This document shows, in pieces, positions 1,844-15,363 of a stretch of DNA of 22,116 bases (position 1 is its first letter; every line of letters begins with the position of its first letter). Source of the DNA: a virus; IMG/VR virus record IMGVR_UViG_3300042982_000040, positions 1 through 22,116 of that record. The stretch is one strand, 5' to 3'. The notes under the pieces are model-generated. The model was not told the origin of the DNA. It was given only the letters and a program-made list of their open reading frames with translations, and searched no databases. Position numbers and translations under genes: made by a program.

Positions 1844-3097
1844 TCATGCCTCGATCGCGGCCGGCTCGTCGTCGGGCTCGAGCACCACGGGGCGCGACTG
1901 CGTGAGCGCGGCCGAGAGCGCCGCGGAGACCGCCAGGCGAGCCGCCGGCATGATGTGGCCGTACCGGTCGACCGTCGTCGTGATGCTCTCGTGCCCGAGG
2001 TGGGCCTGCACGTAGTTGATCGGTACGCCCGCGCCGAGGAGCCAGCTCGCGCACGTGTGACGCGCGTCGTGCACGCGCGGGCGCTTCCCGAGCGGCGGGT
2101 CGAGCGGCTTGATCGGCTTCCCGTGCTCGTCGAGCCGGCGCGCGACCCGCTTCGCCTTCGGGCCCGGCTTCTGCCCGGGCTCGCCGTTCGCGAGCCGCAC
2201 GGCCGGCTGCCAGACGTTGTCGTGGAACGTCTGCGCCTTGACCGGCTCGTCGCGGGCGTTGAGGAAGACGTAGGCGTGCGCGGCCCGCTTCTTCACGAGC
2301 GGCCCCAGCACCTCGACAGTCTCGGGTGCGAGCGAGATCGTGCGCCGGGACCGGTTCGACTTCGGCGGGCCGATGACGCGGCCCTTGTCGGTCTCCTTCC
2401 ATGCCTGCACGACCGTGATGGTCGCGTGGTCGAGGGAGACGTCGCCGACGCGGAGCGCGGAGATCTCGCCCCAGCGCAGCCCGGTCGCGAACAGGACCTC
2501 GACCATGGGCTGCCACGTCGGCGTGAAGCACCCGAGGAACCGGGTGTACTCGTCGTGCGTGAGGAAGACCATCGGCTCGACGACGGTCTTCGGCAGGCGC
2601 GTCCCCTTACAGGGGTTGGCCGGGATGAGCCCGCGCGTCACGGCGGCCTCGAACGCGGAGGAGAGGAACCCGTGCTTGTTCTTGATCGTCTTCCCGTAGG
2701 ACGTGCTCCCCGCGGCCTTCGCGTCCTTCTCGAGCTGCTGCACCCAGCCGCCGACGGCGTCCGTCGTGACCGCGGTGAGGGGGAGCTCGCCGAGGCTGCC
2801 GAGGTCGTTCGCGATGTACCTCCGGTAGCGGCCCGTCGTGCCGTCGGTGACACCCGTCAGGGAGTCGACGTGTTTCGTGCACCACTCCTCGACGGTGTGC
2901 TCGCCGGCGGTCGCTCCCTGGGCCTCACGGAGCAGCCGCACAGCCTCCTCGACGCCGTAGATGTCGAGCCACCGCGCGAACTTCTTCGCGTCGGCCTGGC
3001 GCTCGAACGTCTCGGACGTCTGCTTCTTCTCACGCCGGAAGCGAACGGTCCACGTCTTCGTGCCGTCCTTCGCCACGTGTAGCTTGGCCTCTCGCAT
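1844..3097 (-). CDS. int: tyrosine site-specific integrase (417 aa)
   Basis: ATG 3097 is chosen because GGGAGA lies about 10 bp upstream and the product starts at the usual N-terminal arm-binding domain (residues 1-50, AP2-like, WTVRFRREKKQTSETF). A SAM-like core-binding domain follows (about 68-165). The catalytic domain (about 175-390) shows Arg208 (GLRWGE), Lys246 (PPKSNRSRR), His343-x-x-Arg346 (HDARH), His369 (LGHES) and the nucleophile Tyr379 (DRYGH), a complete tyrosine recombinase set at normal family length. It catalyses integration and excision between attP and a host attB. The putative attP with arm-type repeats lies directly upstream (3119-3368). It is transcribed leftward, convergent with the repressor candidate. 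Confidence 0.96.
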   Translation of the reverse strand: MREAKLHVAKDGTKTWTVRFRREKKQTSETFERQADAKKFARWLDIYGVEEAVRLLREAQGATAGEHTVEEWCTKHVDSLTGVTDGTTGRYRRYIANDLGSLGELPLTAVTTDAVGGWVQQLEKDAKAAGSTSYGKTIKNKHGFLSSAFEAAVTRGLIPANPCKGTRLPKTVVEPMVFLTHDEYTRFLGCFTPTWQPMVEVLFATGLRWGEISALRVGDVSLDHATITVVQAWKETDKGRVIGPPKSNRSRRTISLAPETVEVLGPLVKKRAAHAYVFLNARDEPVKAQTFHDNVWQPAVRLANGEPGQKPGPKAKRVARRLDEHGKPIKPLDPPLGKRPRVHDARHTCASWLLGAGVPINYVQAHLGHESITTTVDRYGHIMPAARLAVSAALSAALTQSRPVVLEPDDEPAAIEA

Positions 3098-3200: not shown

Positions 3201-3262
3201 GTCCGGGTGTTCGTGCAGGTCGCCGAGGATGCTCGAAGGGGTTCAAGTCCCCCTCCGGACAC
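3201..3262 (+). other. putative attP core: tRNA 3'-end-like sequence
   Basis: 3237-3261 reads as the end of a tRNA: a T-arm with loop TTCAAGT (3242-3248) between AGGGG and CCCCC, an acceptor strand TCCGGAC (3254-3260) and a discriminator A. Upstream, GTCCGGG (3201-3207) can pair with that acceptor strand (one G-T), but only 29 nt separate it from the T-arm, too few for D and anticodon arms. It is therefore not a complete tRNA. Actinobacterial tRNA-Leu genes have a similar GTCCGGG/TCCGGAC acceptor; I infer the phage carries the 3' part of such a gene as crossover core. Adjacency to int and flanking arm repeats support attP. Confidence 0.6.
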
Positions 3263-3285
3263 TCGTTGAGACAGCGACCGGAAAC

Positions 3286-3419: not shown

Positions 3420-3707
3420 TCACGTGACCCGCTCCACGTCCCCGACGTCGAGCCAGACCCCGAGGGCCCGCAGCCTGGGGTCGTTCCAGTGGACGAGCAC
3501 GGCGCGCCCGGCCCAGTACTCCGCGCGGCCGTCGACGAGCTCGACGCCGTCGCGCTCCCAGACGACGCGCGCACGGACGCGGGCCTGGGGTATGTGCCGC
3601 TGGTCGTGGTAGGGCGGGATCTCGTGCGCGTTGAGGACGTCCTGCCACCGGGCGCGCCCCGAGTCCCACGAGTGCCCCGCGGGGTCGTGGAAGGTCGGAC
3701 CGGTCAC
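3420..3707 (-). CDS. hypothetical protein (95 aa)
   Basis: GTG 3707 overlaps the stop of the preceding gene (3704-3706) as GTGA, fixing the start. The product is soluble, Trp-rich (WDSGRARWQDVL, VVWERDGVELV, AEYWAGRAVLVHWNDP, LGVWLDV) and has an alternating strand pattern suggestive of a small beta-barrel in residues 40-95. I recognise no named family. It is the last gene of the leftward three-gene accessory operon and precedes the hairpin at 3286-3320. A direct partner role with the GIY-YIG/Phd-like fusion upstream is possible from the coupling, but nothing in the sequence identifies it as a toxin. Confidence 0.7.
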   Translation of the reverse strand: MTGPTFHDPAGHSWDSGRARWQDVLNAHEIPPYHDQRHIPQARVRARVVWERDGVELVDGRAEYWAGRAVLVHWNDPRLRALGVWLDVGDVERVT

Positions 3708-4114
3708 GAGCTACTCGCGCCCGGCGGCGTATAGGCCGTCAGCACGGCTAGTGGGGTGCCGTTCCGGTAGATCACGCACGGCTCGCCATCCGCCGCCGCG
3801 TCCACGAGGTCGTGCAGTCGCTTCTTGGCATCCATGAGCCCCACGCGATGCACGGTGGCGACGTCGATTTCCGCGGCCAAGGCTCCGCGCTGGTTGTACC
3901 GAGGGCAGTCCCTCTTGACGCTCGCCATCTCTGCCGCGTGAGCTTCAGCCTTGGTGTCGAACCACTCGACCGTGCGGGTCCGAACGTCGCTCCACCATGG
4001 CTTGTCAGCGGCGTGCTGGCCCCATCTCCGCGCGGGGTCTTCGGCCACGCCCACGTAGAGCAGAACCCCGAGTTCGTCGCGGAGCCAGTAGACGGCCGTG
4101 CGCTCCGACTTCAC
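3704..4114 (-). CDS. GIY-YIG nuclease domain fused to Phd/YefM-like antitoxin domain (136 aa)
   Basis: GTG 4114 overlaps the upstream stop (GTGA). Residues 6-80 are a GIY-YIG domain: AVYWLRDELGVLLYVGVAED supplies the GIY (VYW, 8-10) and YIG (YVG, 20-22) elements, followed by Arg30, Glu62 and Asn74 (PRYNQ) at the expected catalytic positions. Residues 86-130 match the N-terminal part of Phd/YefM antitoxins (VGLMDAKKRLHDLVDAAADG, then IYRNGTPLAVLTAY). The first domain implies a Mg-dependent nuclease and the second DNA binding or dimerisation. No cognate toxin is obvious. Likely roles are an accessory nuclease that regulates its own operon, or host/superinfection interference; both are inference. 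Confidence 0.8.
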   Translation of the reverse strand: MKSERTAVYWLRDELGVLLYVGVAEDPARRWGQHAADKPWWSDVRTRTVEWFDTKAEAHAAEMASVKRDCPRYNQRGALAAEIDVATVHRVGLMDAKKRLHDLVDAAADGEPCVIYRNGTPLAVLTAYTPPGASSS

Positions 4115-6664: not shown

Positions 6665-6967
6665 TCAGGGGGAGACGCGGGTGATGATCGACAGGGCGAG
6701 CGCGGCGACCGCGGCGATCGACGCGGCGACGGACGTCCACGACGGGTGCCGTGCCTCCGCCGCGGACTCGATGCCCTCGATGTCCTCGTGCACCCCGCGC
6801 AGCTCGCGGTTGGCGTTCTCGCGCCACAGCTCCCACTCGGTGCGCGGGACGTAGAGCTGCTGCTGCTGGGCGAGGAGCGTGGACAGCTGGGCGACCTGGG
6901 CGCGGAGGTCGTCGAGGCGGGCGACGACGACGGCGAGGGTCGCGGCGTCGGTGGTGGAGTCGGTCAC
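6665..6967 (-). CDS. coiled-coil protein with C-terminal membrane segment (100 aa)
   Basis: GTG 6967 is preceded by GGGAGGG. Residues 10-40 and 45-70 are heptad-like helices (LAVVVARLDDLRAQVAQLSTLLAQ, then WRENANRELRGVHEDIEGIE), followed by one hydrophobic segment at 77-97 (TSVAASIAAVAALALSIIT). Similar proteins lie next to actinophage endolysins and are thought to be accessory lysis proteins (pinholin- or spanin-like in a loose sense), but I cannot name a family. It is first in the lysis cassette, between the invertible adhesin cassette and the amidase. After inversion of that cassette its upstream context would not change. Confidence 0.75.
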   Translation of the reverse strand: MTDSTTDAATLAVVVARLDDLRAQVAQLSTLLAQQQQLYVPRTEWELWRENANRELRGVHEDIEGIESAAEARHPSWTSVAASIAAVAALALSIITRVSP

Positions 6968-7015
6968 GTGCGGCCCTCCCGGGTCGTGGTGGCGGGGCGG
7001 CGCTCCGCGCCGAGT

Positions 7016-7048
7016 AGTGCGCTTACGTCAGGTCCGGCGGCCAGTGGC
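7016..7048 (+). repeat. 33-bp inverted repeat, left copy of the adhesin switch
   Basis: It is identical over 33 bp to the reverse complement of 7776-7808. Identity ends sharply on both sides. It encodes CAYVRSGGQW in the plus frame, the same peptide encoded by the other copy in the minus frame. A TAG at 7015-7017 overlaps its first bases and blocks translation of the silent module from upstream. Confidence 0.95.
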
Positions 7049-7395
7049 GGCGGGTCCTGGTGCGGGGCGACGACGTGCGGGTGCCTCTCGTCGCGTCGGC
7101 CGGTGTCACGCTGTCCTACAGCCCCGGGGCGACCCTGTACCCGTGGGGTGAGGTGCAGCTCGACGGTGCCGTGTCCGGGGCTGGCATCCCTGCTGGGATC
7201 GGCTCCTACACCCAGGTCGCGGTCCTGCCCGCGGGGTTCCGTCCAGCGAAATATCAGTACTATCCGGTGACGGTCGGCGGCTCGACGGCACAGGCGTCGC
7301 TCCGGGTGCAGACGACCGGTGAGATCGAGCTCGCCGTCTCACCCGCGACGACCGGCAGCGTCGCGCTCACTGGGATCCGGTTCGCGGCCTCGTAG
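7049..7395 (+). pseudogene. silent alternative adhesin C-terminal module (115 codons)
   Basis: The frame is open from 7018 (inside the repeat) to TAG 7393-7395, with TAG 7015-7017 directly upstream, so it cannot be expressed as a full adhesin in this orientation; a short GTG-initiated product from 7060 is possible but has no clear ribosome-binding site. The sequence is typical of a tail-fibre C-terminal domain, with alternating hydrophobic and Thr/Ser/Gly strands (LPAGFRPAKYQYYPVTVGG, then LRVQTTGEIELAVSP and SVALTGIRFAAS). It is the counterpart of residues 77-191 of the gene at 7429-8004. I interpret it as an intact stored module rather than a decaying remnant, because length and frame are conserved. 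Confidence 0.85.
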
Positions 7396-7400
7396 CATCA

Positions 7401-7426
7401 GGGCCGGTATCGGCCCCTACCGGCCC
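7401..7426. terminator. symmetric hairpin between the two adhesin modules
   Basis: GGGCCGGTA (7401-7409) pairs perfectly with TACCGGCCC (7418-7426) around an 8-nt loop. It starts 5 bp after the plus-module stop and ends 2 bp before the minus-module stop codon. Its centre (7413.5) is within 2 bp of the centre of the inverted repeats (7412), so it would stay behind whichever module is expressed. No T-run is present. Confidence 0.6.
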
Positions 7427-7428
7427 GT

Positions 7429-8004
7429 CTAGCCGAGCATCCAGGTCGCCCGGCCACGCATCCGGGTCATGGGCGTCGTCCCGGTGCCGACAGTCGCCCG
7501 CAGGAACCCGGTGTTCGACGCGTACACCGCGGCCGTCCCACGGATGCCGGCCGGTTCGTTGTACGACGACGCGGGCACGATCGGGTACGCCGCGGACGGC
7601 CGGTAGTCCACCGGGACGAGGTCGCTCGTCACGGGCACGTCAGACGTCACCGACCCCGAGATGTCGAACCGCAACTCGACGGAGTCGCCGTCCGGGCTGA
7701 GCTTCCACTGCGCCGACCCCGTGAACCCCGACGCGAGGGCGAGCGACGTCCACGACCGGGCCGCCCACACCGCCTGCCACTGGCCGCCGGACCTGACGTA
7801 AGCGCACTTGTCAGCGTCGACCCAGGCGTGGATGCCGTCGCGCGCGGTCGGCCACACGGCTTCGAGGGTCGACTTGTCGGGGAACGTCATGAGCGTGCGC
7901 TCGACCAGGAAGTCGTACAGGGACTTCAGGTCGGTGGGGATGTTCGGCGGGTCCGTGAACACCGGCAGCCCGGTGAACCCTTGGATCGGGTCAGTCTGTG
8001 GCAT
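7429..8004 (-). CDS. tail-fibre/adhesin-like minor tail protein with switchable C-terminus (191 aa)
   Basis: ATG 8004 has GAGGG upstream and overlaps the previous gene by 14 bp. Residues 1-66 resemble the N-terminal attachment region of actinophage minor tail proteins (TDPPNIPTDLKSLYDFL, then DGIHAWVDADKCAYV). Residues 67-76 (CAYVRSGGQW) are encoded by the right inverted repeat. Residues 77-191 form a strand-rich receptor-binding-type domain (WKLSPDGDSVELRFDISG, VPVDYRPSAAYPIVP, TGFLRATVGTGTTP). The gene is last of the minor tail genes, the usual place of the host-recognition protein. Homology of the C-terminal region to the silent plus-strand module and the flanking repeats imply alternative versions. 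Receptor binding is inference from position and fold pattern. Confidence 0.82.
   Translation of the reverse strand: MPQTDPIQGFTGLPVFTDPPNIPTDLKSLYDFLVERTLMTFPDKSTLEAVWPTARDGIHAWVDADKCAYVRSGGQWQAVWAARSWTSLALASGFTGSAQWKLSPDGDSVELRFDISGSVTSDVPVTSDLVPVDYRPSAAYPIVPASSYNEPAGIRGTAAVYASNTGFLRATVGTGTTPMTRMRGRATWMLG
7776..7808 (-). repeat. 33-bp inverted repeat, right copy of the adhesin switch
   Basis: This is the exact reverse complement of 7016-7048 and lies inside the adhesin gene, covering codons for residues 67-76. Left of it begins the expressed variable module; right of it lies the constant N-terminus. It preserves the reading frame in both orientations of the intervening segment. Confidence 0.95.
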
Positions 8005-8263
8005 CGGTGTCGCCCTCCTCGGGGTCGGTCGTCTCGTCGTCGTCAGGCGGGGTGGGGTCGGTGCCGGGCGGGTCGGGGTAGTCCGCCGCCACCGCCACGA
8101 CCGAGGTCGCGGTGATCACGACGGACTGCACGGTCGCCGGGTCGAACCCCAGCGCCCGCAGGACGACGTCGGGGGCGGTCGTGTTGTCCACGGGGGTGGG
8201 CTCCGTCACGGTCTGGACGACGTCACCCTCAGCGGGCGTGTCGTCGGTGGTGGTCTCGCTCAC
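7991..8263 (-). CDS. small acidic tail-region protein (90 aa)
   Basis: GTG 8263 overlaps the stop of the preceding minor tail gene (8260-8262) as GTGA. The product is strongly acidic, Thr/Pro/Asp-rich at both ends (SETTTDDTPAEGD and PPDDDETTDPEEGDTDATD), with a short ordered-looking centre (VVLRALGFDPATVQSVVITATSVVAVAADY). No family is recognised. Its place between two minor tail genes suggests a small virion or assembly protein linked to the adhesin, but this is contextual. Its end overlaps the adhesin start by 14 bp, so the two are probably translated together. Confidence 0.75.
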   Translation of the reverse strand: MSETTTDDTPAEGDVVQTVTEPTPVDNTTAPDVVLRALGFDPATVQSVVITATSVVAVAADYPDPPGTDPTPPDDDETTDPEEGDTDATD

Positions 8264-9114
8264 GTGGCATCGCCCCCCGAGTAGGTGATGAGCAGGTCCG
8301 CGTTGCCCGTCGTGCGCCACACCAGCGCACCGTCCACGACGTCGAACCGATCCTGGAAATACGCGCCGTCCACGACGTCCGTGGAGTACAGGCCGAACCC
8401 GGTGATCGTCCCCGCGAGCCACGCCGTCACCCACGCCGCAGGGACCGTGAGCACCGTCTGCTCACCGACCCCGACCCGCGGGAACCGCAACGGCCCGTAC
8501 CCGGCCGCGAAACTCGGGGACCCCGAGGGCTGCGCGGTGTAGGTGTGCCCGTACAGCACCGGCGCCACCAGGTCCTGCTGTGTAGCGCGCACCCTGAGCA
8601 CCACCTGGGCCTGCGAGATCGTCGCACCCGACGGCACCAACTCGGCCGGCGATCCCCACGTGAGGACCGACGCCCGCAGCACCCACCTGGCCGGGGACAG
8701 TCCGTCACCGGCCTGACTCGGGCTGGGGCCCTGGTACGCGTCGACGTGCCCTGACGACCCGATGCCCTCGTACCAGGACCAGCCCACCCCGCCTGTGTCC
8801 GGGGTCGGGATGTAGCCCTGCCACGAGTGCACGGCGGGCACCCGCACCTGCTGATCAGGGACCGTGACCGGGCGCGGGGTGACCTTCGAGGACACCACCC
8901 ACCCGGTCGACGTCGGGATCACCAGCACCCGGTCACCCACAGCGGGGGACGTGTAGGCGGATGACGCCCACGACAGGGACGACGTCGTGGACCCGTCCTC
9001 GAACGCGACCGTCACCAGCTGGGCGCCGAGGTCGACGGCGGTGATGAACCCGACCCGCGCAGGCTTCGGGAGCCGCTTGTCGATCATCCGCGCGACCGCC
9101 TGCGGGGACGTCAC
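8260..9114 (-). CDS. minor tail protein with N-terminal OB-like domain (284 aa)
   Basis: GTG 9114 overlaps the previous stop (9111-9113) as GTGA. Residues 15-80 have an OB-fold-like strand pattern (VGFITAVDLGAQLVTVAFEDG, then VGDRVLVIPTSTGWVVSS) such as is found at the base of tail-tip or spike proteins. Residues 105-284 form a larger strand-rich domain with Gly/Ser/Trp loops (GVGWSWYEGIGSSGH, ISQAQVVLRVRA, TAWLAGTITGFGLYS, ADLLITYSGG), resembling carbohydrate-binding or jelly-roll modules of tail proteins. It sits in the tail-tip gene group between the DUF5047-like protein and the adhesin, so a structural role at the tail tip is likely. Exact family is not identified. Confidence 0.78.
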   Translation of the reverse strand: MTSPQAVARMIDKRLPKPARVGFITAVDLGAQLVTVAFEDGSTTSSLSWASSAYTSPAVGDRVLVIPTSTGWVVSSKVTPRPVTVPDQQVRVPAVHSWQGYIPTPDTGGVGWSWYEGIGSSGHVDAYQGPSPSQAGDGLSPARWVLRASVLTWGSPAELVPSGATISQAQVVLRVRATQQDLVAPVLYGHTYTAQPSGSPSFAAGYGPLRFPRVGVGEQTVLTVPAAWVTAWLAGTITGFGLYSTDVVDGAYFQDRFDVVDGALVWRTTGNADLLITYSGGDAT

Positions 9115-10274
9115 GACGTCACCGCCCCGATGTCACGCGTCGCCACCGGGAACGCACCCCCAGCCGTCAACGGCAGGGTGCACGAATCGATCATGTGGCG
9201 CCTCACGCTCGTCCTCAGCCGGTCGGGGTCCGTCACGATCTCCACCACATCCAACGCCTCCAAGGCCGCGTGCGGCAGCGTCGACAGGGACAGGGACTCC
9301 GCGCCCCCCGTCGACAGTGCGAGCTGGGTGCGGGCGTACGCCTGGCAGTCCGCGAGCGTCGCCAACGACGGCATGGACACCGTCGTGGGCGCCTTCCCGT
9401 AGAACCCGGCATCGGGGTCGCCGTACCGGGTCGGGGACCCCGCGACGTCGTCCTGGGCAACACCCTGAATCGGGGCCGTGGCGCCGTCGGGGGTCGCGCC
9501 CAGCACGATCCAGCGGTTATAGACGCCCTGCCGCGACGACGTCCGCGACACGTCGAGGAGCGACCCGCCCGTGCGCGGCTGGAACCGCCACACCGGCGGC
9601 GTCTGCATCGTCGGCAGGTCGGTGATGACGAACCGGCCCATCGGGTCGCTGTAGACCTGCACGCTCAGCGACGTCGCGAGCTCCTGGATCGCGGTCCACC
9701 GGTCGTCCCACGTCGTCGGCGTCACCCGACGATCCCGGGCCGTCAGCACCGCGACCTCCGCGGACGGGAGCGTCTCGAGGATCAGGTCCCGGATGATCGC
9801 GCACGCCGACGGCCCCGACAGCGACCGCGGCGCCGTGAACACATCGTCCACGACCCACGCCTCACGCGACACCCCGGTCACCGTGACCTCGGTCAGGCCG
9901 AGGTCCGAGCCCGCGCCCGAGTCGATCCGGAACCGCCCCACGGGGACCGGCAGGATCGCGCCCGACGGCGTCACGAGGGCGTGCCGGACCCGCAGCTCCT
10001 GCCCGTAGTGACCCAGCACGTCCGACGGCACCGACGGGAGCGCCGGGACCTGGCTGTACGTCCCGGACCGCAGGAACGCCGGCACCGTGATGCTGATGCT
10101 GCGCCGCGTGGACTGGGTGCGGTCCACCGTGATGCTGCCGCCCGTGATCGGCAGAGACACCGCCGACCCGTCAGGCCACCGCACCGGCTGCCCCGCCCGC
10201 CACACATCCACGAACACAGCCAGGCCGTGGCTCGACGTGAGGACCTTGTCGTACCCGTCAGGAACAGGCCACAC
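9111..10274 (-). CDS. minor tail protein, DUF5047-like (387 aa)
   Basis: The frame is open far upstream, but GTG 10274 is chosen because it begins 2 bp after the stop of the preceding gene (10277-10279) and GGGGAG lies at good distance. The N-terminus (residues about 10-120) has the pattern of DUF5047 actinophage tail proteins: VLTSSHGLAVFVDVWRAG, ITGGSITVDRTQSTRRSISIT, LGHYGQELRVRHAL, PVGRFRIDS. The middle and C-terminal parts resemble tail-hub/baseplate proteins (WTAIQELATSLSVQVYSDPMGRFVITDLP, then ALEALDVVEIVTDP). It is probably the tail-hub protein joining the distal tail ring to the tip. The upstream part of the long frame overlaps the previous gene and is a shadow. Confidence 0.82.
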   Translation of the reverse strand: MWPVPDGYDKVLTSSHGLAVFVDVWRAGQPVRWPDGSAVSLPITGGSITVDRTQSTRRSISITVPAFLRSGTYSQVPALPSVPSDVLGHYGQELRVRHALVTPSGAILPVPVGRFRIDSGAGSDLGLTEVTVTGVSREAWVVDDVFTAPRSLSGPSACAIIRDLILETLPSAEVAVLTARDRRVTPTTWDDRWTAIQELATSLSVQVYSDPMGRFVITDLPTMQTPPVWRFQPRTGGSLLDVSRTSSRQGVYNRWIVLGATPDGATAPIQGVAQDDVAGSPTRYGDPDAGFYGKAPTTVSMPSLATLADCQAYARTQLALSTGGAESLSLSTLPHAALEALDVVEIVTDPDRLRTSVRRHMIDSCTLPLTAGGAFPVATRDIGAVTS

Positions 10275-10276
10275 GA

Positions 10277-11074
10277 CTACCAGCTCCCCATCGCCAGATC
10301 CAGGTACGTCGGCACCTGATCCGCCAGGTCCTGGTACGTCGCGAACGTGGCCGCCACGACGTCGTACGTCGCCCCCGCGAACCCCGTGCTGTCGCCGGCG
10401 GGCATCGCCGAGGCTGCGATCTGGAGCGTGTGCTGCCGCAGACCCAGGCGGTCCGAGCGCATCCCGCCCGGGTTGGAGTGCGAGAAGCCGGTGACCGCGT
10501 AGTAGTCGCTCGGCAGGTCCGACGACGGCTGCCCGGACTGGATCAGCAGCACGCCGCCGGGAGCCTGCGTCAGGAGCGCGAGCAGCGCCGCTGACTGCGC
10601 GGCCGTCTCGGTGGTGACGACGAGCGACGTCGTCAGTCCCGCGAACCCGGCGAACTGGGCGACTCGCTGGCCGCCCGGGATGTCGTAGACGCCGCCGATG
10701 TTTGAGCGCGCACGGTCGCCCGTGTCGGCCGACCCCGCGAGGAGGTTGAGGTCCGCGCGCCCAGGCGCCTTGAGCCAGAGCCCCCACTCGGCGCCCGCCG
10801 TCGACACGACCGCCGTGAGCGTGACGGGGGAGTCTGGGCCGACCGCCGTTGCGACGTAGGTCACGGCGGCGTCCATGGGGGCTTCGTTGTCCGAGGACAC
10901 GAGCACCCCGCCGACGAGCGCCGCGGCCTCGATTCCCCGCACCGGGACCGGGGACGCCCCAGCCACGGTGCGGGTGATCGTCGCTGACGTGGCCGTATCC
11001 CAGCCGTCGTCTGTGCCGTCGGTGGCGAGTTGCACGAGGTTCCGGTCCGGGTCGAACACCGCCGTGAGCGCCAT
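10277..11074 (-). CDS. distal tail-type minor tail protein (265 aa)
   Basis: ATG 11074 overlaps the stop of the tape measure gene by one base (TGATG), with a G-rich ribosome-binding site upstream. It lies directly after the tape measure, where siphoviruses encode the distal tail (Dit) protein. The sequence is beta-rich (TYVATAVGPDSPVTLTAVVS, EWGLWLKAPGRADLNLLAG) and carries a small central helix-containing insertion (AAQSAALLALLTQAPGGVLLIQ). A C-terminal segment (MRSDRLGLRQHTLQIAAS, then FATYQDLADQVPTYLDLAMGSW) resembles the end of known actinophage proteins in this slot. Dit assignment is by position and fold pattern, not by a diagnostic motif. Confidence 0.75.
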   Translation of the reverse strand: MALTAVFDPDRNLVQLATDGTDDGWDTATSATITRTVAGASPVPVRGIEAAALVGGVLVSSDNEAPMDAAVTYVATAVGPDSPVTLTAVVSTAGAEWGLWLKAPGRADLNLLAGSADTGDRARSNIGGVYDIPGGQRVAQFAGFAGLTTSLVVTTETAAQSAALLALLTQAPGGVLLIQSGQPSSDLPSDYYAVTGFSHSNPGGMRSDRLGLRQHTLQIAASAMPAGDSTGFAGATYDVVAATFATYQDLADQVPTYLDLAMGSW

Positions 11075-14000
11075 CAGAAACCCCCGCCCACGTACGCCGC
11101 CTGCCGGTCCTGCGCCGCCGTGTGCGCCGAGACGACGCCGCCCGCAACCTCGACGACGTACCCGTCGAACTGACGCTCACCCACCTGCACGACGACCCGC
11201 GCGCCCTCGAGGGACACCGTCGTCGCGGCCTGCGAGTGCACGACCGCCGCCGACGCGGGGAGGATCGTCGTCGCGCCGCGGGAGTTGATCCACTCGAGCA
11301 GCCCCGCATTGGCCTTCGCCGCCTGGGCGTTGACCACGAACTCGCCGCGGCTGAGCATCGCCCGGACACTGTCCGAGGTGGACGTTCCAGGACCGTCGAC
11401 CCACCCGCCGAGTGCCTTCTTCACGACCTGCCCAGACGAGTTCAGCTTGAGGCCGTAGGGCGAGAGCTCAGCGTTCGTGAGCGTGACGCCCCACTTCGCG
11501 ATCTGGCCGTTGACCTTATCGAGCGACGCCGTCAGGGAGTTGACCGCCGTCGTCGCCGCCGTCAGGCCGCCGATGGAGTCCGCGCTCGTGAGCGACTGGC
11601 CCGCCGAGGTGCCCGCCTTCGCGATCGTGTCGTAGGAGCCCTTCACCGAGTTCAGGTCCGCCGTGCTCATCGTGAGGAACGCATCGAGGAACGCGATCCC
11701 CTGCTCAGGGTCCGAACCGAAGATCGACAGGGCCTGCTGCACGATCGCGACCGACGCCGGCGAGGTACCGAGCTTCTTCTGGAGGGTCGCGAGCTTCGAC
11801 GTGAACGTGGACGCCGCGGCGGCCTGGGACTTCGCGGTCGAGAGAATCCCGGCCTTCGTGTAGCCCTTCGTCGCCTGGTCGTACCAGACGTTGCCCGCGG
11901 CATCCGTGTGCTGCGTGCCGCTCGCGTTGTACGCCTTCGACAGGTCGAACGTCCCCTTGATCGCCGACGACGCGGAGTCCGCCAGGGACTTCATGTCGGC
12001 CAGGTGGTCGCTCGCCTTGTCCAGCTTCGACTCAAGACCGTCGGCCTGCTTGTACAGCTTCGTCAGGGCTGGTTCCGCGGACTTCGCGGCCTTGTACATC
12101 GCGGTGCGCTGCCGCTGGGTGAGGTTGCGGTCGTGGGACTCGCTCTCGATCTGGTCCACCGCGCTGAGCGCGGAGTCCAGGCCGCCCGTGACTGCGTCGA
12201 TCACGTTGCCGCGGCGTGCATCGGTCCGGGCCGACTTCTCGGTCTCCGCAAGACCGGCCGACTTCTCCTTTGCCGTGTCGCGAGCCTTGATCGCCGACGC
12301 GAAAGACCCGTACCGCTTCACGAACGCGCGCGCGATGTTCGCGTCCGTCAGCGCCTTCTTGTCCTCGCGGAGCTGCGAGTTCGCGACCGAGCGGTCGATC
12401 CCACGGAGCACGTACCGGGACTTCTTGTTGCCCTTCCCGTAGTGCTCCTTCTCCCGCAGAGAAGCCTGGTCGTTCTTGATGGCCTGCTTGAGCCGCAGGT
12501 AGTCCGACCCGGACGCGTACCGGCTCTGCCAGTACTCGAGCGAGTGCCCGTGCCACTTCGACGGGATCTTCCCGCCCTTCGCGAACCCGGGCAGCGTGCC
12601 GGCGTTGATCGCGTCGACGAGCGGCCCGTACCTCGAGTACGAGCGCGCGTTAACCACGAACTCGCCCGGCGACGCCCGGATGAGCACCCGGTCGTCCGTG
12701 GGGCCGCCGGGGCCGGAGATCTTGCCGCCATCCGCGCGGCCGGGCACCTTGACGCCCACACCCACGTTCACGTTCGGCACGTACAACTGCTGCATCGCCG
12801 ACCTGAACGCCGACGTGTCCGCGGTAACTCTGATTGCCGCGCCCTGCTTGTCGGTCCACGACGTAAACTCTGCGACGACCTGACGGCCCTTCGCGTCCGT
12901 CCCGGACACGATGATGTGACCGGTCGTCTGGTCGACGGTCGTCTTGTACGAGTGCAGGGTCGTGAGCGCCTGGCCGTCGTCGCCCTTGAGCGTGATCGTG
13001 CCAGCCGTGTCGTCAACGGCCGCCTTGACGCCCTTGAGCGTCTCCTTCACCGGGCCGTCGTCGCCCGTGACCGTGACCTTCGCGGTCGTGTGGTCCGCGG
13101 CCTCCGCGATCGAGTCGAGCGCCGCCTGCGCGTGCGCCGTGTCGACGGACAGGATGATCGGCGTCGGCTTCGGGCCGAACTTCTTGTCGAGGTAGTCGGC
13201 CAGCTTCTGGGCATGCTGCTGCCCGGAGTCGAACGCCCCATTGAGCTTGTCGATGTTCTTCTTCGAGCCCTCGGCGAGCTCCTTGATCCGGCCAGCACCC
13301 TCGGGCCCGAGCTTCGACAGCTGGTCGAGCAGGGCCTGCGACCCGCCCTTCTTCGCGATCTTCGCGAGGTTGTCGTCCCGCTGCGACTCGGCCTTGATCT
13401 GGTCCTGGACCATCTTGATCCAGCCCTGGAGCGACGCCTTCGCGGTGTCGACGTTCTTCGAGATGTCCACGAACGACGAGCCCGCGTCAGCGATGCCCTG
13501 CGCCCACTTCACCAGGTCGTCCGACGCCTGCTCCTGGGCCTGCTGCGCCTGCTGAATCTTCGACGTGAAGTCCGAGACAGCCTGGGTCGTCTGCTGGGTG
13601 GTGAGCCCGACGTCCTCCTGGGCGTCGAGGTACTCGTCCGCGCCCTTCTTGCCCTTCGCGAACGCGTCCTGCGTGCGCTCGAGGACGGCGTTGAGGACGT
13701 CGACGTCGGTCGACGAGCCCTTGCCGGCCTTGTTCGCCTTCTGCATCGCGGCGGCGTACCGGTCGGATGCCCCAGGCAGGTCGAGGGCTGCGTCCACGAT
13801 GATGTCGGACGCGATGCCGAGGTTCTTCGCGGCCTCGAGCGCGGACCGCCCGTCGCCGCCCTCGGTGAGCTGCTCCCACGTCGACTGCCGGTCGTTCGCG
13901 AGCTTGTCGAGTACCGCGGACCGGGTGGCGTCGGTGATGGCGCCGTCCGTCTCGATCAGCGCCTGCTTGAAGTCGTCCGTGCCCTGCTTGGCCTTCGCAG

Positions 14001-15363
14001 TCTCGTTCGCCCAGATCGTCAGAGCCGTCGCGCCCGCAGCGATCGCGAGACCGACGCCGCCGGCCGCGAGCGACGCGCCCTTGAGCGTGATGTTCATCGC
14101 CTGCGCCGCGGCCCGGACCTCGCGGATCTTGACCGCGAGCTTGACCATTCCGGCGACGCCGAGCACCGCGAGACCAGACCCGCCCGTGATGAGCAGCGCC
14201 GTCTGCTTGATCGGGCCGGGGAGCCCCCCGAACGCCGTCGTGAGGTTCGTGACGTCCTGCACGAGCGGGCGCAGCGGACCGTTTCCACCCTCACCCAGGC
14301 CGATCAGGTCGTTCTGGATGCTGGCCCTGAGCTTCGTCAGGTCGCCCGAGAGGCTGTTGAGCTTCCCGCCGGCCTGGTCGGCTGCGAACCCGTTCGCGTC
14401 GACGGCGTCGGTCCACTTCTGGACCTCCGCGGCACCGCCCTTCATGAGGACCGTCGCCGTGGTGATCTGCTCGTTGCCGAAGATCTGCCCCAGCGCCTGC
14501 TGACGGGTCGCCTGGTCGAGCGTGCCGAGCTTCGTTCGCAGCTGCTCCGCGACGCCGTCGAGCCCGACGAACGCGCCCTGCGCGTTGTAGACCTCGATCC
14601 CGTACTGCGCCATCGTCTTCGCGGCGATCGACGACGGTGACGTCAGCGACTGGATCATGCCGCGCAGCGACGTGCCCGCCTGGTCGGCGAGGATCCCGTT
14701 CTGCGCGAGCTCGGACAGCACGCCGACGGTCTGCTCGATGGGGATGTTGAGCGCAGCAGCGACCGGGCCGACGTACTTGAGCCCCTGCCCGAGGTCGCCC
14801 ACCGACCCCAGCGCCTTGTCCGCGCCCGCCGAGAGCAGGTCCGCGATGTGCGTGACGTCCTTGCCGGCCAGGCCGAACTGCGTCATCGCGGACGCCGCGA
14901 TGCTCGTCGCGTCCGCAACGTCGAGCTGGCCGGCAGACGCCAGAGTGAGCGCACCCTTCAGCGCGCCGCCCATGATGTCCTTGACCGAGACGCCCGCCTT
15001 CACGAGCTCGATCTCGGCGTCCGCGGCGTCCGACGCGCTCGCACCGAAGTCCTTCGCGAACTGCATCGAGGCGGTCCGCAGCTTGCCCATCTCCGACGCC
15101 GTGGCGTGCGTCAGGGACTGGACCTGCGCCATCTTCGAGTCCCAGTCCGCGAACGCCTTCACCGCGACCGCAGCAGCCCCCACGAGCCCGGCGCCGAGGA
15201 GCGCGGCCGAGCGGGTCGCCTTGTCGATGTTCGCCCGGTTCTGGTCGATGTACGACCCGGCCTGGTGGGCGAAGTTCGCCGTCGCGTTCTGGGCCGCGTG
15301 CAGGTTGGTGATGAGACCCTGCACGTTCGCGGTGATGACCATGCGGAGAGTGCGGTCAGCCAC
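11074..15363 (-). CDS. tape measure protein (1429 aa)
   Basis: GTG 15363 is preceded by GGGGGTGA. At 1429 aa it is the longest gene and sets tail length, at about 1.5 angstrom per residue by the usual rule. Residues about 75-345 match the TP901-type tape measure core (WDSKMAQVQSLTHATASEMG, VKAGVSVKDIMGGALKGAL, LADQAGTSLRGMIQSLTSP). Hydrophobic segments at about 53-70, 388-410 and 430-450 suit membrane insertion during DNA ejection. Long Ala/Lys/Gln-rich helical stretches follow. The motif GPG-x(2,3)-T-x-D..., ending GEFVVNA, occurs twice, near residues 890-910 and 1330-1350. The gene lies after the chaperone genes and an opposite-strand membrane gene. A 1172-codon plus-strand frame across it is a GC-driven shadow. 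Confidence 0.96.
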   Translation of the reverse strand: MADRTLRMVITANVQGLITNLHAAQNATANFAHQAGSYIDQNRANIDKATRSAALLGAGLVGAAAVAVKAFADWDSKMAQVQSLTHATASEMGKLRTASMQFAKDFGASASDAADAEIELVKAGVSVKDIMGGALKGALTLASAGQLDVADATSIAASAMTQFGLAGKDVTHIADLLSAGADKALGSVGDLGQGLKYVGPVAAALNIPIEQTVGVLSELAQNGILADQAGTSLRGMIQSLTSPSSIAAKTMAQYGIEVYNAQGAFVGLDGVAEQLRTKLGTLDQATRQQALGQIFGNEQITTATVLMKGGAAEVQKWTDAVDANGFAADQAGGKLNSLSGDLTKLRASIQNDLIGLGEGGNGPLRPLVQDVTNLTTAFGGLPGPIKQTALLITGGSGLAVLGVAGMVKLAVKIREVRAAAQAMNITLKGASLAAGGVGLAIAAGATALTIWANETAKAKQGTDDFKQALIETDGAITDATRSAVLDKLANDRQSTWEQLTEGGDGRSALEAAKNLGIASDIIVDAALDLPGASDRYAAAMQKANKAGKGSSTDVDVLNAVLERTQDAFAKGKKGADEYLDAQEDVGLTTQQTTQAVSDFTSKIQQAQQAQEQASDDLVKWAQGIADAGSSFVDISKNVDTAKASLQGWIKMVQDQIKAESQRDDNLAKIAKKGGSQALLDQLSKLGPEGAGRIKELAEGSKKNIDKLNGAFDSGQQHAQKLADYLDKKFGPKPTPIILSVDTAHAQAALDSIAEAADHTTAKVTVTGDDGPVKETLKGVKAAVDDTAGTITLKGDDGQALTTLHSYKTTVDQTTGHIIVSGTDAKGRQVVAEFTSWTDKQGAAIRVTADTSAFRSAMQQLYVPNVNVGVGVKVPGRADGGKISGPGGPTDDRVLIRASPGEFVVNARSYSRYGPLVDAINAGTLPGFAKGGKIPSKWHGHSLEYWQSRYASGSDYLRLKQAIKNDQASLREKEHYGKGNKKSRYVLRGIDRSVANSQLREDKKALTDANIARAFVKRYGSFASAIKARDTAKEKSAGLAETEKSARTDARRGNVIDAVTGGLDSALSAVDQIESESHDRNLTQRQRTAMYKAAKSAEPALTKLYKQADGLESKLDKASDHLADMKSLADSASSAIKGTFDLSKAYNASGTQHTDAAGNVWYDQATKGYTKAGILSTAKSQAAAASTFTSKLATLQKKLGTSPASVAIVQQALSIFGSDPEQGIAFLDAFLTMSTADLNSVKGSYDTIAKAGTSAGQSLTSADSIGGLTAATTAVNSLTASLDKVNGQIAKWGVTLTNAELSPYGLKLNSSGQVVKKALGGWVDGPGTSTSDSVRAMLSRGEFVVNAQAAKANAGLLEWINSRGATTILPASAAVVHSQAATTVSLEGARVVVQVGERQFDGYVVEVAGGVVSAHTAAQDRQAAYVGGGF

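Follow-up and report, generated by a model that had tools for sequence, protein, structure and literature searches.

The locus described here raises a specific question: how could a phage tail gene built for two alternative forms be switched between them when no invertase gene lies beside it? The window, by which we mean the whole stretch of DNA analysed, is a linear IMG/VR record of 22,116 bases and derives from a temperate actinobacterial siphophage. On the minus strand, starting from the right, portal-region, capsid, tape measure (11074-15363), distal tail, hub and baseplate genes are followed by a putative receptor-binding protein (RBP) gene, and then by lysis genes, an integrase and a repressor. 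As the right end is truncated in the portal region, the record lacks the terminase and a large part of the early region. The putative RBP (minor tail protein) gene (7429-8004, minus strand) is the last tail gene ahead of the lysis genes; it encodes 191 residues in the present orientation and matches phrog_16452 with an E value of 1.5e-10. Its neighbours are also on the minus strand. Immediately upstream are a small tail-module gene with conserved synteny (7991-8266), a tail/baseplate gene belonging to the same module (8260-9114) and the tail hub/tip gene (9111-10289), whose relative in Streptomyces phage Samy is annotated as a baseplate hub protein. On the lysis side lies another small gene of conserved synteny (6665-6967).

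The remainder of the window includes a phage tyrosine integrase gene (1844-3096, minus strand), whose approximate start was set at the ATG of MREAKL..., and upstream of it a plus-strand sequence resembling a tRNA 3' end (3225-3282), identified by eye, which is likely the attP core of this integrase. Two further observations concern the same part of the window. Positions 3704-4114 encode a small protein with a GIY-YIG nuclease domain and, C-terminal to it, a segment resembling the antitoxin Phd/YefM, whose score is under the Pfam cut-off. Divergent helix-turn-helix repressor-like genes at 1053-1454 and 1390-1620, which overlap as listed, are probably an immunity switch, and the true start of the minus-strand gene of this pair is probably further downstream.

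The initial annotation had reported two perfect 33-bp inverted repeats around the RBP segment, and indeed the left arm (7016-7048, plus strand) and the right arm (7776-7808, minus strand) are exact reverse complements that cannot be extended by a single base. By a simple base-composition estimate, about 5e-10 such pairs are expected by chance in a sequence of the window's size. The repeats bound a segment of about 0.79 kb. The RBP gene begins with a constant N-terminal anchor of 76 codons (7777-8004, minus strand), which is not part of the swapped heads, and continues into the expressed head module A (7432-7776, minus strand, 115 codons). Facing it on the plus strand is a silent head module B, also of 115 codons (7048-7392, stop codon 7393-7395). 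The claim that either orientation would give a 191-residue protein with the same N-terminus was borne out by inverting the segment in silico: the result is a 191-aa open reading frame that keeps the common 76-residue prefix ending in ...CAYVRSGGQW, and in both forms 115 codons follow the shared Trp, as had also been proposed. Module B was correctly described as startless, since its proper N-terminus has no start codon; the earliest in-frame start is a GTG at 7060, and initiation there would leave out the anchor. In the RBP frame its codon-position GC contents are 0.70/0.58/0.86, which is coding-like, and it is similar to the C-terminal part of a minor tail protein in PHROG (E 1.2e-6). The two modules end in convergent stop codons, and the spacer between these (7393-7431) contains a small inverted repeat; its folding, no better than that of shuffled sequences, gives no support to an intermodule terminator.

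What does the switched protein do? The RBP family is a loose one of proteins of about 185-210 aa, encoded downstream of hub and baseplate genes, whose members have an anchor of about 75 aa in common and divergent heads. In Samy, the gene just downstream of the hub relative is annotated as related to the receptor-binding protein of Listeria phage PSA. The structure model of the window RBP is modest (pLDDT 62.8), and its top Foldseek matches in the PDB include the RBPs of p2, bIL170, TP901-1 and PSA at weak E values of 0.03-0.7; the model of the alternative head is poor (pLDDT 44.6). Taken together, family context, the Samy annotation and these weak fold matches suggest that the RBP likely binds a host receptor. 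As in the lactococcal phages p2, TP901-1 and bIL170 and in PSA, the protein would be a small tail-tip RBP with an N-terminal anchor and a putatively beta-rich C-terminal head, and both its position in the tail module and its anchor-plus-head layout are of the lactococcal type. It differs from them in having no significant sequence match, the likeness in fold coming from a low-confidence model.

We found the same design in two other phages. A profile of the hub protein (tail hub alignment A1) retrieved 27 viral contigs, and in two of these the RBP contains an exact inverted repeat: L151, a metagenome record of 43.6 kb with the repeat AACGGTGTTTATGTCT at 10330-10345 and 11105-11120, and L164, an isolate prophage record of 43.0 kb with the repeat GTGGATTTACGTCAACGGGGA at 10892-10912 and 11760-11780. 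Both repeats sit at the point used by the window's RBP, a YV motif at about residue 70, and in both phages the opposite strand carries, in convergent orientation, an alternative head that has no start codon and comes into frame once flipped. The L151 silent head matches phage protein families. The three RBPs are mutually only about 25-30% identical and their repeat sequences differ, so that it is the design that recurs. In a scan of related phage loci, no exact inverted repeat exceeded 19 bp except the 21-bp pair of L164. Capsid relatives were tried as comparators and set aside: they have head genes but not the tail tip in common with the window, and show no comparable inverted repeat. A mixed RBP alignment was too diverse for scanning. 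Neither the window RBP nor that of L164 has a close relative in the collections searched, and no useful match to the window RBP, its DNA or the codons of CAYVRSGGQW was obtained in viral contigs and phage records. Because no flipped copy of the window phage was found, inversion is a step that we infer. The invertible-switch reading fits the occurrence of this architecture, at the corresponding RBP codon, in L151 and L164 as well, the similarity of the silent modules to phage tail or RBP C-termini, and the place of the RBP as last tail gene before lysis. As judged from these sequences, the two-state phase-variation architecture of the RBP in the window is real and recurrent.

We then asked which recombinase could act on these repeats. 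No serine recombinase (PF00239) was detected in the window or in L151, and the sole one in L164 is a large integrase of about 489 aa; no serine invertase was found beside any of the three switches. No tyrosine recombinase was detected in the L164 record, which is near-complete from terminase to integrase. In the window and L151 the only recombinase is the integrase, of the tyrosine family, which in the window lies 4 kb from the switch, beyond the lysis genes. An invertase of the IS110/Piv type was rejected, as no such gene is present in the window, L151 or L164, and so was the integrase core as switch site, the best match of the attP region to the 33-mer being only 12/18.

The repeat ends point elsewhere, to dif. 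A pattern search within one mismatch recovered the chromosomal actinobacterial dif from 328 of 396 genomes, all belonging to one order. It reads ..GCCGATAA-N6-TTATGTCA.., in accordance with the dif published for Frankia alni, CACGCCGATAA TGCACA TTATGTCAAGT (PMC3025954). The exact form GCCGATAA-N6-TTACGTCA occurs in one of the 396 genomes (G178:C84:8877-8898, locus L347; score 31.4) and is a putative dif variant. A weight matrix built from the arms of 30 chromosomal actinobacterial dif sites, the central six bases being ignored, was run over both strands. Its best position in the window (score 15.4) is a proximal site inside the RBP gene, GACGCTGACAA GTGCGC TTACGTCAGGT (7791-7818, minus strand), and the second of all positions on both strands (11.8) is a distal site (7006-7033, plus strand) adjoined by the small gene on the lysis side. 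The distal site consists of an XerC-type arm CGCGCCGAGTA (7006-7016), located in intergenic DNA, the central GTGCGC (7017-7022) and an XerD-type arm TTACGTCAGGT (7023-7033). The next position in the window scores -1.6. The switch sites also rank first and second in L151 (17.0 and 11.3, next 2.0) and in L164 (18.7 and 11.0, next 1.5), which leaves about 9-13 bits between the switch pair and the third position in these three sequences. With the F. alni dif alone as query, the window pair comes out on top, each site matching 17/22 arm positions (next 13/22), as does the pair in L164; in L151 the better site of the pair shares its score of 16/22 with one unrelated site.

TTAYGTC forms the core of all six sites, and each has a half-site upstream, at a distance of six bases. 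The 6-bp cores (GTGCGC, CGGTGT and GTGGAT) differ among the three phages and are identical within each pair. The optimum for the XerC arm is a spacing of exactly 6 bp at all six sites, about 6 to 30 bits above other spacings. A control scan with the reversed matrix found no sites, and after dinucleotide shuffling any score of at least 11 appeared in only 0.7-2.3% of trials. The proximal arms lie in the RBP frame, so their similarity may be partly inherited protein sequence. The distal XerC arms of the three phages fall outside that frame, in the stretch that separates the segment from the next gene, and are mutually unrelated; even so, they place within the best 0.24, 0.97 and 0.07% of all positions (combined P 3e-6). 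Within the frame, each of the three switches has T as the last base of the codon preceding TAY-GTC, and third-position T usage is only 4.7% in the window's tape-measure gene. In L164 the first base of the exact repeat is also that of the six-base core; in the window the repeat begins one base further out, and in L151 two. A Xer-type exchange would keep the outer arms in place, and the boundary of the repeat falls at the corresponding point.

The sites are nevertheless imperfect. Those of the window and L164 have TTACGTC in place of the chromosomal TTATGTC, each site carries several mismatches, and the switch-site scores of 11-19 are far under both the 31.4 of the genomic variant and the matrix maximum of 43.8. 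Their weakness may be suited to infrequent switching, or it may signal a variant recombinase. A scan of viral contigs for near-perfect dif patterns gave at least 120 sites and was biased towards near-perfect ones, unlike all six switch sites. Among the matches listed, a strong partner in inverted orientation and with an identical core was found for none of the 120 other viral dif-like sites, and one has a weak inverted partner whose core matches at 5/6 positions. No dif-like pair was present near the hub gene in Brevibacterium AGM1, Arthrobacter Wollypog, Streptomyces Samy or Propionibacterium PFR1. Other arrangements were also seen. The viral contig L330 has strong dif-like sites in direct orientation around 6078 and 9933, 3.9 kb apart, and L328 has strong ones in tandem copies around 1076-1105; these elements are perhaps integrated at dif. 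A lone dif-like site of score 10.7, GCCTCCGAGAA TGGCGT TTATGTCCGCG (L155:10377-10404; L115 is the same phage), lies in the RBP at the switch codon and has no partner. This is possibly a switch minus its second module.

On the strength of these sequence comparisons, the locus is best explained, and in our judgement quite probably, as an RBP phase-variation switch flipped in trans by the host XerC and XerD proteins. The gene would have two states, a constant 76-codon anchor being joined to one of two tail-to-tail 115-codon heads, and a flip of the 0.79-kb segment would bring the other head into frame. At the two dif-like sites, which are inverted relative to each other, the host XerC and XerD would bind and carry out recombination within the 6-bp core. 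Part of the phage population would then bear the alternative head and could adsorb to different receptors, and a phage-encoded invertase would be unnecessary. Action of the host proteins in trans is the simplest reading because L164 has no tyrosine recombinase, the other two phages have only their integrase, none has an IS110-type enzyme, and the window integrase is expected to act at a tRNA 3' end unlike the switch site. Several points count against a role of the host Xer proteins. The sites are imperfect and score well under chromosomal dif. XerCD at dif normally resolves direct repeats together with FtsK, and at cer the recombination of inverted sites is disfavoured by accessory proteins (PMC5357621). 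Moreover, the flipped form is deduced, the window is only a 22-kb fragment and the proximal arms are coding.

The alternatives must be weighed against the same evidence. The switch could be real and yet be served by an invertase of the phage's own, either a Xer-like or Rin-like tyrosine enzyme or a serine enzyme, encoded in a part of the genome outside the window. Known phage switches do encode the enzyme that flips them (Mu Gin, P1 Cin, Bifidobacterium Rin; PMC6109161), and the window, cut in the portal region, is missing a good part of the genome. We regard this as unlikely, since the near-complete L164 carries only its large serine integrase, with neither a tyrosine nor an IS110 recombinase, and since host dif arms with a 6-bp spacing are not expected of a dedicated invertase. 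That the phage integrase doubles as invertase is much less plausible still: it is the sole recombinase in the window and belongs to the tyrosine family, but its likely attP core is the tRNA 3' end, which is little like the repeat, and L164 has the same kind of switch with a serine integrase instead.

The second head might also be a static relic, formerly inverted in a phage that has since lost flipping. The failure to find a flipped copy in the collections searched agrees with this, and the lone site in the L155/L115 RBP suggests that switches may decay. It is improbable, in our view, for a silent head that has stayed intact over 115 codons despite having no start codon, with coding-like composition and similarity to tail proteins, between repeats that are exact across 33 bp. 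As for an assembly artefact or a chance inverted repeat, the sequence across the arms does come from the assembled record alone, but frame, length and dif-site logic are concordant and the arrangement recurs in two other records, so that we give this explanation practically no weight.

How would a switch driven by host XerC and XerD compare with the systems already described? The initial annotation had likened the locus to the Mu G and P1 C segments. This comparison holds for the logic, a constant N-terminus with alternative C-termini on an invertible segment, but not for the machinery. Mu and P1 encode a serine invertase (Gin, Cin) beside the segment and use gix/cix sites, whereas the window has no such gene that we could find, dif-like sites and a small RBP of about 191 aa; the best gix/cix-type dyad in the 33-mer matches at an unconvincing 7/15. 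Among actinobacterial systems the closest in concept is the Rin shufflon of Bifidobacterium prophages (PMC6109161), which swaps the RBP C-terminus behind a constant N-terminus and is predicted to use tyrosine recombination. It is a multi-module system with an adjacent dedicated tyrosine invertase, Rin, acting at 11-bp rix sites, TTCCCTAACCC, a sequence absent from the window's 33-bp arms; the window has two modules, no adjacent invertase and dif-like sites. In a second inverted bifidophage locus, 689b-1 / Bb423phi2, no recombinase is adjacent and the authors suggest an invertase acting in trans (PMC6109161). Like the window's, this locus is two-state, with a segment of about 500 bp that swaps the 3' end of a gene; unlike it, the gene is of unknown function and the crossover is the 8-bp CAGGGTTA, which by inspection is not dif-like.

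That some phages integrate by means of Xer is well established (PMC5357621). CTXphi, VGJphi, TLCphi and gokushoviruses carry dif-like sites on which the host XerC/XerD act, as is predicted for those of the window. Their outcome is integration at the chromosomal dif; the inverted pair of the window would turn around a stretch inside the phage genome, and this phage encodes an integrase of its own. The dif-like attP through which IMEX enter the chromosome likewise has no counterpart here: the attP candidate is tRNA-like, and the dif-like pair is inverted and lies in and beside a tail gene. Inversion of phage RBP genes and phage use of Xer are thus each known, and searches of the open paper library, outside which lie most subscription papers and all of bioRxiv, turned up no report of their combination.

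In the well-studied textbook cases of phage tail inversion, the phage supplies the invertase. We think it likely, if with a little more reserve than for the window itself, that host dimer resolvases run a receptor switch of tailed phages without any phage invertase in at least three distinct actinobacterial phages, and FtsK may tie such switching to cell division. If this is true, two sites of about 28 bp would suffice for a phage to diversify its RBP, and the switch should function in any host with a compatible dif system. Searches for invertible loci that start from neighbouring recombinase genes would overlook such switches. The recombinase-less inversion of Bifidobacterium prophages would gain a candidate type of explanation, although the crossover sequence differs there. 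Finally, control by the host Xer proteins predicts that inverted dif-like pairs should be found within the tail genes of actinophages.
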